A DNA stretch of 64,000 nt from Streptococcus sp. oral taxon 061. Its GTDB lineage: Bacteria; Bacillota; Bacilli; Lactobacillales; Streptococcaceae. A model generated the notes under the pieces. The model worked only from the letters and a program-made list of their open reading frames with translations. It ran no database searches and had not been told where the DNA came from. Below are positions 30,547-33,694 of the stretch, one piece after another. Location of the stretch: positions 82,001 through 146,000 of the forward strand of contig NZ_CP058258.1 in assembly GCF_013394695.1 (NCBI RefSeq), in the 5' to 3' direction. Both the position numbers and the translations under genes were made by a program. Positions within the stretch are counted from its first letter, which is position 1. Each line of letters begins with the position of its first letter.

Positions 30547-30575
30547 TTGACTTTTACTAGTTAAAGGTTTATACT
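30547..30575 (+). promoter_or_regulatory. Promoter of the M-box / mgtA transcript
   Basis: TTGACT (30547-30552) and TATACT (30570-30575) with a 17-base spacer. The predicted start near 30582 gives a leader of about 450 bases before mgtA. Confidence 0.85.
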
Positions 30576-30586
30576 GAAAGGCGAAA

Positions 30587-30724
30587 ACGGTAGGTGAGGC
30601 TACCATAGGGATACGGATGACTACCGCAAAGCAGTGGAGACACTACTCGTTGGTCAACAGTCCTGGTCGCGAAGGTCAAGACTAAGCTCATTACATCGCC
30701 CTATGGAGTTAAAGCTTGAACGAA
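30587..30724 (+). ncRNA. M-box (ykoK leader) magnesium riboswitch
   Basis: Conserved M-box blocks are present in order: GGTAGGTGAGGCTACC...GGATAC at the 5' end, TTGGTCAACAG in the middle, and CCCTATGGAGTTAAAGCTTG at the 3' end. These parallel the Bacillus ykoK leader segments GTTAGGTGAGGCTCCT, GGGTCAACAG and GCTAAAGCTCTACG. It lies right after a strong promoter and upstream of a MgtA-type ATPase. Family knowledge: Mg2+ binding compacts the RNA and turns the downstream gene off. Confidence 0.9.
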
Positions 30725-30743
30725 AACAGATAATCAGTTTTTT

Positions 30744-30780
30744 AGTCCTGCCATTTTATGGCAGGACTATCTGCTGTTTT
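30744..30780 (+). terminator. Putative riboswitch expression platform
   Basis: An 11-bp perfect stem AGTCCTGCCAT / ATGGCAGGACT with a 3-base loop, followed after nine bases by TTTT. Flanking AAAACAG (30723-30729) and CTGTTTT (30774-30780) can extend the structure. It is the likely Mg2+-controlled terminator. Confidence 0.7.
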
Positions 30781-30803
30781 AAAACAATGAAAGGAGAAAA
30801 ACG

Positions 30804-30875
30804 ATGCAAATTGACGATCATCCAGAACCGCACATACACAGCCAATCGCTGATTTGTGTCGTTCTGTCCCTATAA
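30804..30875 (+). CDS. 23-residue leader peptide upstream of mgtA
   Basis: This open frame begins ATG at 30804 with a strong AAAGGAG site seven bases upstream and ends TAA at 30875. The peptide starts MQIDDHPEPHIHSQS and ends in a hydrophobic stretch (LICVVLSL). It lies after the M-box terminator and before mgtA, so it is only transcribed when the riboswitch allows. The acidic/proline start (IDDHPEP) recalls the MgtL leader peptide of enterobacteria (EPDPTP), where such residues destabilise translating ribosomes at low magnesium. Codons 10-15 form the left arm of a 15-bp stem. Function is inferred. Confidence 0.6.
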   Translation: MQIDDHPEPHIHSQSLICVVLSL

Positions 30876-30896
30876 AGTGATTGGTCTCTGTGTATG
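30833..30896 (+). promoter_or_regulatory. Long stem overlapping the leader peptide's 3' half
   Basis: CATACACAG-CCAATC (30833-30847) pairs with GATTGG-(TCT bulge)-CTGTGTATG (30879-30896), 15 bp in all. Ribosomes finishing the leader frame would melt it, while ribosomes lost at codons 4-9 would leave it intact. Confidence 0.65.
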
Positions 30897-30897
30897 A

Positions 30898-31000
30898 TAC
30901 TCTTCGAAAATCAAATTCAAACCACGTCAACGTCGCCTTGCCGTACTCAAGTACAGCCTGTGGCTAGTTTCCTAGTTTGCTCTTTGATTTCCATTGAGTA
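30898..31000. repeat. BOX element (boxA-boxC type) in the mgtA leader
   Basis: A 103-bp element from TACTCTTCGAAAATCAAA to TTTCCATTGAGTA, with an almost exact boxA core (CGTCAACGTCGCCTTGCCGTA) and boxC core (GGCTAGTTTCCTAGTTTGC). It lies between the leader peptide and the mgtA ribosome site, so it is part of the mgtA 5' UTR. Confidence 0.9.
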
Positions 31001-31033
31001 TGAAATCACTATTCATACAGATAGGAGAAACCA

Positions 31034-33694
31034 ATGAAAACTACAAAAGAAAGATTAGCAGCAGCTATTCAAACTCCATTTACAGAAAGCCTAGCTTTTT
31101 ACCATACAAGTCTAAAAGGCTTAGACCAAGAACAAGTTGAAGAAAACCGTGACCTATATGGTGAAAACACCATCACTAAGGGTCAAGAGGATTCCATCTT
31201 TAAAAAGATTTATGAGTCCATTATCAATCCTTTCACAATTATTTTGCTGGTAATTGCCTTTATCTCTCTCGTTACAAACGTCTGGCTTGCAAAACCTGGT
31301 CAAGAAGATCCAACGACTTCTATCATTATCGTTGTCTTGGTTTTGATTTCAGGAGGTATCCGTTTTGTCCAAGAATTGCGGAGCGACAAGGCAACAACCA
31401 ATCTTTCAAAAATGATTGTCAACACAGCAACTGTTATTCGTGATGGTCTTGAACAAGAGTTACCCATCGATGAGTTGGTTGTAGGAGATCTCGTGAAATT
31501 GAGTGCGGGAGATATGATTCCAGCAGATGTTATCTTGTTCGAATCCCGCGACTTTTTCGTTCAACAGTCAGGTTTGACTGGAGAAAGTGATGCAGTCGAA
31601 AAACTTGCTTTAAATAAAGCGACTAGCCAAAATGTAGATAGCCTTTTAGAAGAAGAATCTTTGGCATTCATGGGGACAAACGTTATCTCAGGAAGTGCTA
31701 CAGCTATGGTTCTAGCAGTTGGGGATGACACCATGATGGGAGCTATTGAACAGACTCTCAACACCTACGATGAACCAACTTCTTTTGAACGTGAAATGAA
31801 CAGCATTTCATGGCTCTTGATCCGTTTGATGCTTGTCATGGTTCCAATCGTGTTTCTCGCAAATGGTTTGACCGATGGAGACTGGCTAGAGGCTGGAGTA
31901 TTTGCCTTGAGTGTTGGTGTCGGACTTACACCAGAAATGCTTCCGATGATTATTACAGCCAGCTTGGCCAAAGGTTCCATTATCATGGCCAAGGAAAAGG
32001 TAGTCATCAAAAAACTCAATGCTATCCAGGACTTAGGAGCAATCGATATCCTATGTACGGATAAAACTGGAACTCTTACGCAAGATGAGATTGTCTTAGA
32101 ATACCCATTGGATATCCATGGCGATTTGGATATGGCAGTCTTAAGAAGAGCTTATCTAAATTCACATTTTCAAACAGGTTTGAAAAACTTGATGGACCGT
32201 GCCATCATCAGTAGAACTGAAAAAGAAGCCAAGGAACATGTTATCCTACAAAATCTAGACACTAGCTTCCAAAAAATCGACGAACTACCATTTGATTTTG
32301 AACGTAGACGCATGAGTGTTATCGTCAAAGATGATAGCAATGTTGTTAGTATGGTGACCAAAGGCGCTTTAGAAGAAATGTTGAACATTTCGACACATGT
32401 GGAATATCGTGGAGAAATAATCCCTATTACCGAAGATATTCGCCAAGAAGTACTGGCAGAAGTTGGTCAATTAAACCGTCAAGGCTTGCGTGTCTTAGGT
32501 GTTGGCTACAAATCAGGTCTACGTGAAGATTATGCCTATGCTGTGACTGATGAAAGTGATATGATCCTTACGGGTTATCTTGCCTTCTTGGATCCACCAA
32601 AACCATCTGCAGCACCAGCTATTCAAGCTTTGCTTGAACATGGTGTCAGAACAAAAATTTTAACTGGAGATAATGAAAAAGTAACCCAAGCCATCTGTGA
32701 AAAGGTTGGTTTGGATGTTGAGCAGATGCTTTTAGGAGCTGATATCGACCAAATGACAGACCAAAAATTGGCAGAAGCGGTTGAAAGTGTAACAGTCTTT
32801 GCCAAATTGTCTCCTGACCAAAAAGCTCGAATTATTCTACAATTGAAGAAAAATGGTCATGCCGTTGGTTATATGGGTGACGGTATTAATGATGCCCCGT
32901 CTATGAAGGTGGCAGATGTTGGAATTTCCGTTGATACAGCAGTAGATATCGCAAAGGAAACAGCTGATGTTATTTTGCTAGACAAGGATCTCATGGTTCT
33001 TGAAACAGGTATCGTTGAAGGCCGGAAGGTCTACGCCAACATGACCAAATATATTAAGATGACAGTTAGTTCAAACTTTGGGAATATCTTCTCACTATTG
33101 GTTGCAAGTATTTTCTTGCCATTTTTACCAATGGCTCCTGTTCATCTCATTGTCCTAAACCTAGTCTACGATTTATCTTGTGTGGCATTGCCGTTTGATA
33201 ACGTGGATCAAGACTTCCTAAAACAACCCCATACATGGGAAGCAAAATCCATTACGCGATTTATGGTTTGGATGGGTCCAATCTCATCTATCTTTGACAT
33301 TTTGACCTTTATTTTCCTCTACTTTATTATTGTTCCTTTGGTGACAGGCTATCATTATGTTCATGGGTCAGAATCTGCCCTTCAGTTTATTATCTTGTTC
33401 CAAACAGGATGGTTCATCGAATCTATGTGGTCTCAAACCATGGTTATCCATATGCTTCGTACGGCAAAAGTTCCTTTTGTACAAAGCAGACCAGCTTGGC
33501 TTGTAATCTTGACAACCTTGGTTGCCGCAATTTTCGTAACTAGTCTGCCTTATGGACCGCTAGTAAATATTCTTCGTTTAGCTCCATTAGGACTTCCTTA
33601 TTTCTTGTTCCTAACCTGTATTATTTTCTTGTACATGTTTAGTGTCACAGTTATTAAGAAATTTTACATTAGGAAGTACAAAGAATGGTTATAG
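31034..33694 (+). CDS. mgtA: Magnesium-transporting P-type ATPase (MgtA type, P3B)
   Basis: This 886-residue P-type ATPase has the phosphorylation motif DKTGTLTQ, the TGES actuator motif (GLTGESDAVEK), the hinge GDGINDAPSMKVADVGISVD, and the MgtA-typical segment SSNFGNIFSLLVASIFLPFLPM in the membrane domain. The family imports Mg2+ at low magnesium. The M-box leader upstream agrees with this. An AGGAG site precedes the ATG, 33 bases after a BOX element. Related streptococcal ATPases have been reported to move calcium or manganese instead, but those are a different subtype by regulation. Confidence 0.92.
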   Translation: MKTTKERLAAAIQTPFTESLAFYHTSLKGLDQEQVEENRDLYGENTITKGQEDSIFKKIYESIINPFTIILLVIAFISLVTNVWLAKPGQEDPTTSIIIVVLVLISGGIRFVQELRSDKATTNLSKMIVNTATVIRDGLEQELPIDELVVGDLVKLSAGDMIPADVILFESRDFFVQQSGLTGESDAVEKLALNKATSQNVDSLLEEESLAFMGTNVISGSATAMVLAVGDDTMMGAIEQTLNTYDEPTSFEREMNSISWLLIRLMLVMVPIVFLANGLTDGDWLEAGVFALSVGVGLTPEMLPMIITASLAKGSIIMAKEKVVIKKLNAIQDLGAIDILCTDKTGTLTQDEIVLEYPLDIHGDLDMAVLRRAYLNSHFQTGLKNLMDRAIISRTEKEAKEHVILQNLDTSFQKIDELPFDFERRRMSVIVKDDSNVVSMVTKGALEEMLNISTHVEYRGEIIPITEDIRQEVLAEVGQLNRQGLRVLGVGYKSGLREDYAYAVTDESDMILTGYLAFLDPPKPSAAPAIQALLEHGVRTKILTGDNEKVTQAICEKVGLDVEQMLLGADIDQMTDQKLAEAVESVTVFAKLSPDQKARIILQLKKNGHAVGYMGDGINDAPSMKVADVGISVDTAVDIAKETADVILLDKDLMVLETGIVEGRKVYANMTKYIKMTVSSNFGNIFSLLVASIFLPFLPMAPVHLIVLNLVYDLSCVALPFDNVDQDFLKQPHTWEAKSITRFMVWMGPISSIFDILTFIFLYFIIVPLVTGYHYVHGSESALQFIILFQTGWFIESMWSQTMVIHMLRTAKVPFVQSRPAWLVILTTLVAAIFVTSLPYGPLVNILRLAPLGLPYFLFLTCIIFLYMFSVTVIKKFYIRKYKEWL

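Follow-up and report, generated by a model that had tools for sequence, protein, structure and literature searches.

Comparison of leader sequences indicates that a second layer of control, lying behind the M-box riboswitch of the streptococcal mgtA gene, is real and conserved, and this layer is most likely a Mg2+ sensor, still putative, that works by destabilising the ribosome and has a translational output. Two elements would thus stand in series over mgtA, the M-box first and a short leader peptide second. We consider it probable that the M-box is followed by a Mg2+-sensing leader that switches between two RNA pairings (2:3 and 3:4, see below) to gate the translation of mgtA; the translation of the leader, the drop-off of ribosomes, the dependence on Mg2+ and the direction of the switch are parts of this scheme that we infer.

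The window, by which the whole stretch of 64,000 nucleotides analysed from the 1.77 Mb genome of Streptococcus sp. oral taxon 061 is meant, contains the complete locus on its forward strand. Promoter-like hexamers, TTGACT and TATACT with a 17-nt spacer (30547-30575), match the consensus at 10 of 12 positions and are the same in the relative L047, in keeping with the promoter proposed in a preliminary description of this DNA. The M-box recognised there is secure, as the aptamer at 30582-30735 scores 84.2 bits with the covariance model RF00380 (gathering score 44), and it is the sole M-box found in the host genome. The terminator-like hairpin that had been noticed 3' of the M-box is also present, at 30743-30769, with 12 pairs and a weak T tail, and is no evidence by itself since 0.6 such sites are expected in shuffles. 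Next comes the 23-codon frame, again as described, with its Shine-Dalgarno (SD) sequence AAAGGAG at 30790-30796, its ATG at 30804 and its TAA at 30873-30875; the peptide MQIDDHPEPHIHSQSLICVVLSL (30804-30875) starts MQIDDHPEPH. The frame is followed by mgtA (31034-33694), encoding a Mg2+-translocating P-type ATPase (NCBIfam equivalog TIGR01524, 1077.9 bits against a cut-off of 610.75) that shares 98% identity with MgtA of several strains of the mitis group, their labels being S. oralis, S. infantis and S. pseudopneumoniae.

Among 58 loci scanned for intrinsic terminators, one was found between the M-box and the leader ORF in 50 and between the start of the leader ORF and the gene in only five, which lends little support to an attenuator with an intrinsic terminator past the leader start. 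With the terminator mostly upstream of the leader ORF, the peptide would come into play once the M-box had decided, in series with it. The four mitis-clade loci of this set (L161, L051, L037 and L032) fail the T-run rule and no intrinsic terminator was found after the M-box of the relative L047; in the mitis clade the post-M-box hairpin is present, with a poor T tail. In S. sanguinis, S. cristatus and their kin, eight of 80 named loci (L073, L076, L080, L082-L084, L094 and L100; ~430-1470) have a 203-codon gene (MKFWYSSTSPFARKVY...) between the M-box with its terminator and the leader ORF, and its product is, judged by eye, presumably glutathione-S-transferase-like. The leader remains adjoining mgtA despite this inserted gene and therefore travels with mgtA. 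Elsewhere two pairs of tandem M-boxes were seen, each ~0.1-0.2 kb apart, at G419:C16:177527-177699 with 177862-178040 and at G685:C3:349678-349839 with 349937-350100.

The preliminary description had suggested that a functional frame should show synonymous-biased substitution and conserved acidic and proline codons in relatives, and both are found. The pattern IDD[HY][PT]EP is present in 74 of 83 distinct leaders of streptococcal type (Streptococcus and one Abiotrophia), and the IDDHPEP codons themselves (30810-30830), which make up the putative ribosome-destabilising motif, occur as 16 distinct haplotypes with pS 0.66, pN 0.015 and a dN/dS of 0.009, or 317 synonymous against 30 nonsynonymous pairwise differences. 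Only the first nine residues of the leader are constrained; the eight codons after them drift at a near-neutral dN/dS of 0.95 (10 haplotypes). Pairing of the RNA does not account for the conservation of H6 to P9, because these four codons, which close the motif, are in neither of the hairpins (1:2 and 2:3) that involve the frame, so it looks like selection on the residues. By these substitution patterns, the frame is conserved in the manner of a leader peptide. More distant leaders retain mainly the acidic/proline block, such as MPNDDHPSQQ at the start of the S. intermedius leader, MPEDGHPEK in S. massiliensis, MLSDDYSEK in a Streptococcus metagenome-assembled genome, MSSDDHPIS in a further Streptococcus, MPNADSEP, and MPNADSEPILRPKP in Abiotrophia defectiva. 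The ends of several otherwise unrelated leaders (L126, L133, L122, L252, L125 and that of the window) are often hydrophobic with a cysteine (YYCLFVS, LLSICF, YCLFVF, LCVVC, LICVV), which could be a feature of RNA pairing or of the nascent chain.

A census was made of M-boxes, which are present in 148 of 284 Streptococcus genomes, 209 of 295 genomes of the order and, at class level and with streptococci counted, 73 of 200 genomes. Between M-box and gene an SD-led ORF of 8-60 codons was sought whose SD matched over 5 nt or more and whose residues 2-11 included three or more D/E/P, two of them acidic; identical regions were merged, 20 dinucleotide shuffles per region gave the background, and eight loci were left out for a late-starting gene match or a too-short region. 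Such an acidic/proline ORF is found in 107 of 118 mgtA regions of the Streptococcus set (shuffle mean 3.45), many of which are closely related and not independent; the remaining 11 failed the SD rule, with leaders still visible in at least L162 and L177. In other Lactobacillales it is found in 41 of 72 mgtA regions (shuffle mean 1.65); 18 of the 27 genera have it, or 17 once a spurious hit is discounted, and nine show none by this rule. The leader is therefore not peculiar to streptococci. For mgtE the counts are two of two regions in Streptococcus (shuffle mean 0.0, one genome being counted twice), five of 15 in Lactobacillales (0.25) and four of 12 in other Bacilli (0.35). In other Bacilli there are none in five mgtA regions (shuffle mean 0.1) and three in 27 regions with other or unclassified genes behind the M-box (1.25). 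As controls, M-boxes of other Lactobacillales that precede other genes gave two of 37 (1.05) and TPP riboswitches one of 30 (0.95); a yybP-ykoY control was unused because too few loci were available (9 of 60 genomes). A chance ORF can be ruled out by the peptide-level selection together with this census against shuffles.

Leaders range from 14 to 54 codons among the relatives seen and, beyond their acidic/proline character, their sequences differ between genera. In genus g7, 14 of 16 examined M-box loci with an mgtA-type leader have E(V/L)E(E/D)PDSY in an acidic stretch, the exceptions L270 and L272 having different acidic leaders. When eight loci off the peptide pattern were rescanned a leader was found in six and none in L402 and L405, and in L291-L293 only ~105 nt lie between M-box and gene. 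One leader that precedes mgtE reads MDNSPVPEPS. In Bacilli outside the Lactobacillales, SD-led ORFs behind M-boxes before mgtE include MDGDPRSY (L364), MDHPDSRH (L379) and MDSPHSS (L383), and further ones behind M-boxes are MDSPYDRS (L340), MDSSPEPNK (L375) and MDSSPESS (L381). Acidic/proline leaders (MTTEIIDPGASS in L281 and MLMTAEVYDPGSSS in L282) are also seen behind M-boxes before a gene that matched neither MgtA nor MgtE and that is perhaps another transporter gene. We lean, with some reserve, towards the view that Lactobacillales, and some mgtE genes of Bacilli outside that order, share a general two-sensor module for Mg2+, made up of an M-box and a ribosome-destabilising leader after it, in which the aptamer would act first and the ribosome second, the leaders would be unrelated between genera except for their early acidic and proline residues, and the output in the Rho-less streptococci would be translational.

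The preliminary description had drawn a 15-bp stem between the frame and the sequence after its stop codon; a stem is indeed predicted there, but it comprises 18 pairs, is interrupted by a 3-nt bulge and joins 30833-30850 to 30876-30884 and 30888-30896. An additional hairpin, missed earlier and found on a relative, joins 30801-30818 to 30845-30862. TGTATGA (30891-30897) and TCATACA (31013-31019), proposed as alternative partners, are at those positions and their pairing does reach the mgtA ribosome site, but in the window a 106-nt repeat that is absent from most relatives lies between them. In repeat-less relatives the two are opposed across a ~10-nt loop and four competing regions are predicted, with 1:2, 2:3 and 3:4 pairings. 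In window coordinates region 1 (30801-30818) holds the start codon and the first acidic codons, region 2 (30833-30862) is the middle of the ORF, of which 30845-30862 would pair with region 1 and 30833-30850 with region 3, region 3 (30876-30897) directly follows the stop and contains the anti-SD and TGTATGA, and region 4 (31013-31036) comprises TCATACA, the mgtA SD AGGAG (31023-31027) and the AUG. In the repeat-less leader L054 the predicted energies are -13.5 kcal/mol for region 1 (ACG AUG and the first acidic codons) with region 2 (codons 14-20), -21.8 kcal/mol for region 2 (codons 10-16) with region 3, and -15.6 kcal/mol for region 3 with region 4 (TCATACA, the mgtA SD and AUG). As the 1:2 and 2:3 pairings overlap by just 6 nt, a pseudoknot could hold both.

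These pairings were aligned over 46 leaders (44 distinct) from the 80 named loci. For 1:2, 98.8% of cells are paired and three of 17 pairs have changed on both sides; for 2:3, the stem for which covariation had been anticipated, the figures are 94.9% and four of 18, these being few changes among related sequences; and for 3:4 they are 88.3% and three pairs. Sliding one partner lowers the pairing to 19-59% (1:2), 22-40% (2:3) and 32-48% (3:4). The number of doubly changed pairs is less discriminating, as a slide of +2 gives an equal number for 1:2, whilst those of 3:4 are matched by 40 of 500 shuffles and its pair types by 274 of 500, and for 3:4 a slide of -1 raises the covariation score from 0.059 to 0.077 and a slide of +2 has four doubly changed pairs against three. 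The covariation in these pairings comes from a small number of changes in related sequences. When segment energies were compared with 200 shuffles in each of eight species, the 2:3 segment was matched by at most two shuffles in six species, the 3:4 segment by at most nine in seven and the ORF segment by at most seven in four.

Accessibility of the mgtA SD was then predicted for 83 distinct leaders, 76 repeat-less and seven with the repeat, L065 being left out for a run of N, and L072, L143 and L151 because the rule found no leader in them. Mean predicted openness over the 76 repeat-less leaders is 0.257 when the RNA is free, 0.379 when the codons to 9 are masked as if by a ribosome and 0.259 when those to 17 are masked. 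Between the latter two states 39 of the 76 shift by more than 0.05 in the predicted sense, none in the opposite sense, and 37 by 0.05 or less. The generality of this switch was examined with 50 leaders and 40 shuffles per leader, nine loci without an SD-led gene start having been dropped (L112, L124, L126, L134, L192, L202, L232, L258 and L260). Among 15 representatives from Streptococcus and Abiotrophia, openness with codons to 9 masked is at least that of both other states in 14 (only equal in L079 and L110), is lower by 0.02 in L142, and is unmatched by any of the 40 shuffles in seven. The 35 other leaders show a rise of at least 0.1 in seven, four of them (L136, L199, L201 and L278) unmatched by any shuffle, a fall of more than 0.05 in 12, and are otherwise flat. 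A universal SD switch is not borne out, since outside Streptococcus only some leaders show it.

The leader of the window is itself unusual. Compared with the 80 named mgtA loci, most of which are without it, 30898-31003 is a 106-nt insertion that separates regions 3 and 4, has TATGA direct repeats on both flanks, and which we take to belong to the BOX-type repeats known from the pneumococcal group. The host genome has 16 pieces that match it, five of which, counting the window copy, are nearly full-length and match at 90% or more, and seven of the 83 distinct leaders contain the insertion (labelled S. infantis in five cases and S. timonensis and S. pseudopneumoniae in one each). Mean SD openness of these seven is 0.412 with codons to 9 masked, 0.381 in the free RNA and 0.295 with codons to 17 masked, with six of the seven behaving as predicted. 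When the window's own leader was folded the predicted SD switch was not seen, openness being 0.21 free, 0.22 masked to codon 9 and 0.30 masked to codon 17, since the repeat takes up the SD both in the free RNA and in that masked to codon 9. In the latter state 2:3 does form (mean pair probability 0.98), and the SD is predicted to be bound by the repeat segment 30984-30995; masking to codon 17 instead has the SD predicted to pair with region 3. As the repeat captures the SD the second layer may be altered or broken here: the folding model suggests that segment 30984-30995 perhaps rewires the switch, and that the second layer is perhaps disturbed by the repeat in the clade of the window strain. 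A separate case is S. mitis ColumbLawn (L072, ~1248-1501), in which MQIDDHPEP is kept but the stems are gone, the frame continuing into a BOX-like repeat; judged by its sequence this is a natural loss of the switch.

No Rho was found over the cut-off in any of 40 streptococcal genomes, the host included, against eight of 14 control genomes. The preliminary description had read the locus as MgtL-like, and of this reading the acidic/proline leader upstream of mgtA and the stem that overlaps the frame stand, but the Rho-dependent output of a true mgtL mechanism is ruled out as streptococci are without Rho; control should therefore lie in the translation of mgtA or in the stability of its mRNA. 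In the scheme that we favour, the M-box would decide read-through at the hairpin that follows it, as is known for its family, and on the read-through mRNA the early acidic and proline codons would destabilise ribosomes at low Mg2+. In the ON state ribosomes would start and be lost at IDDHPEP, with region 1 covered and region 2 free, so that 2 would pair with 3, the anti-SD would be tied up and the mgtA SD would be open. Two OFF states are envisaged, one with the leader untranslated, in which 1:2 would form together with 3:4, and one with the leader read to its end, in which region 2 would be covered and 3:4 would form; in both the mgtA SD and AUG would be sequestered.

It is possible, if unlikely, that the acidic and proline codons stall ribosomes, in an arrest dependent on EF-P or ABC-F proteins, rather than shed them. 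The outcome on the mRNA would be the same 2:3 pairing and the signal would be the state of a translation factor or tRNA, not Mg2+. The motif has separated prolines as well as acidic residues, and with EttA present the E. coli MgtL gives a toeprint that has Pro3 in the P-site (PMC11282234, in part). What speaks for Mg2+ as the signal is the position of the leader, between a Mg2+ riboswitch and Mg2+ transporter genes of two unrelated families, and its rarity behind other M-box genes (2/37) and TPP riboswitches (1/30).

Less probable again is a coupling of the opposite sign, in which ribosomes standing at the leader stop codon would occlude the anti-SD and free the mgtA SD, so that full translation of the leader would mean ON. 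A ribosome placed at the stop codon does raise the predicted mean SD openness to 0.657, and leaders of the S. parasanguinis type end only 18 nt before the mgtA start; it follows from the former that full translation closes mgtA, as in our preferred scheme, only if the ribosomes move on. Such a coupling gives no reason for the conserved acidic and proline codons, however, and if the motif senses Mg2+ as MgtL does it would boost a Mg2+ importer at a time of plentiful Mg2+.

A role for the small protein as a product, acting for example on the MgtA protein, seems very improbable, as constraint is confined to the first nine residues, the next eight having a dN/dS of 0.95, and the sequences differ between genera beyond their acidic/proline character; regulatory small proteins are nonetheless known from this setting, the mgtCBRU operon of Salmonella encoding MgtR and MgtU (PMC8092293, in part). 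Least credible of all is regulation by the M-box alone with frame and hairpins as a passive spacer. In its favour are the strong aptamer, the terminator behind the M-box of 50 of 58 loci and the lack of the predicted switch in the window's own leader, but such a spacer would leave unexplained the peptide-level selection and the excess of leaders over shuffles and over two kinds of control locus.

A drop-off sensor with a translational output has its nearest precedent in mgtQ-mgtB of Salmonella, where experiments described in the excerpted text of PMC8092293 established the Asp2 and Glu5 codons, stem-loops 1:2 and 3:4 against 2:3, and the release of the ribosome binding site. Both systems have a short ORF with a strong SD and early Asp/Glu codons, ribosome-destabilising in mgtQ and putatively so here; mgtQ-mgtB has four regions with 1:2 and 3:4 set against 2:3 and the ribosome site of the transporter gene within 3:4, an arrangement predicted here for repeat-less relatives, though the window's own leader does not show the switch; and the control is translational there and proposed to be so here. 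They differ in that mgtQ has eight codons and lies between two genes of a PhoP-controlled operon, whereas the streptococcal ORF has 23 codons, is unrelated in sequence and is placed behind an M-box and not between genes of an mgtCB operon. As streptococci are without Rho the system is closer to mgtQ-mgtB than to mgtL, whose output is a Rho-dependent terminator (PMC11282234, in part, which cites Chadani 2017, Zhao 2011 and Gall 2016 for mgtL). With mgtL it shares a leader of the same kind of gene, an acidic/proline motif in the first codons (EPDP in mgtL, DDHPEP here) and the expectation that premature release raises mgtA; unlike mgtL it has no Rho and has a predicted SD-sequestering hairpin downstream of the ORF. 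By analogy, the streptococcal leader may be called a relative of mgtQ-mgtB in logic, with a signal of the MgtL type, behind a riboswitch.

The riboswitch side of the locus also has its parallels. The excerpts of PMC12810186 present the M-box of the B. subtilis type as a switch that turns transcription OFF, and the window aptamer is a member of the M-box family (RF00380) by covariance model, with the difference that an extra conserved leader ORF follows here. The same source describes an M-box in M. tuberculosis before pe20 that controls the upstream ORF rv1805A via a translational platform and Rho. There too short ORFs stand between the M-box and the main gene, and one is conserved, with a conserved N-terminal region and a proline, but the role of that ORF is reported as unclear and, in those excerpts, no ribosome destabilisation is proposed. 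Among the open-access papers listed by our searches, judged mostly by their records, none was seen to describe an M-box with an acidic/proline leader behind it in Firmicutes, which agrees with the earlier remark that no M-box followed by such a translated leader was known from streptococci; the excerpts of PMC7674665, PMC12824596 (on the Listeria M-box-mgtA locus), PMC9495176 and PMC8844918 do not mention such an arrangement.

In the papers cited above, the sensing of Mg2+ by ribosomes through acidic/proline nascent chains is an enterobacterial mechanism. If the present reading is true, ribosomal Mg2+ sensing would have emerged, or been retained, across Gram-positive bacteria already equipped with a Mg2+ riboswitch, and the question becomes why two sensors should be placed in series, one for free Mg2+ during transcription and one for the state of the ribosome during translation. 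The dozens of natural variants of the motif, with both mgtA and mgtE as outputs, could then help to define what makes ribosomes fall off. Finally, the pump genes of many related bacteria may be under two Mg2+ sensors in series.
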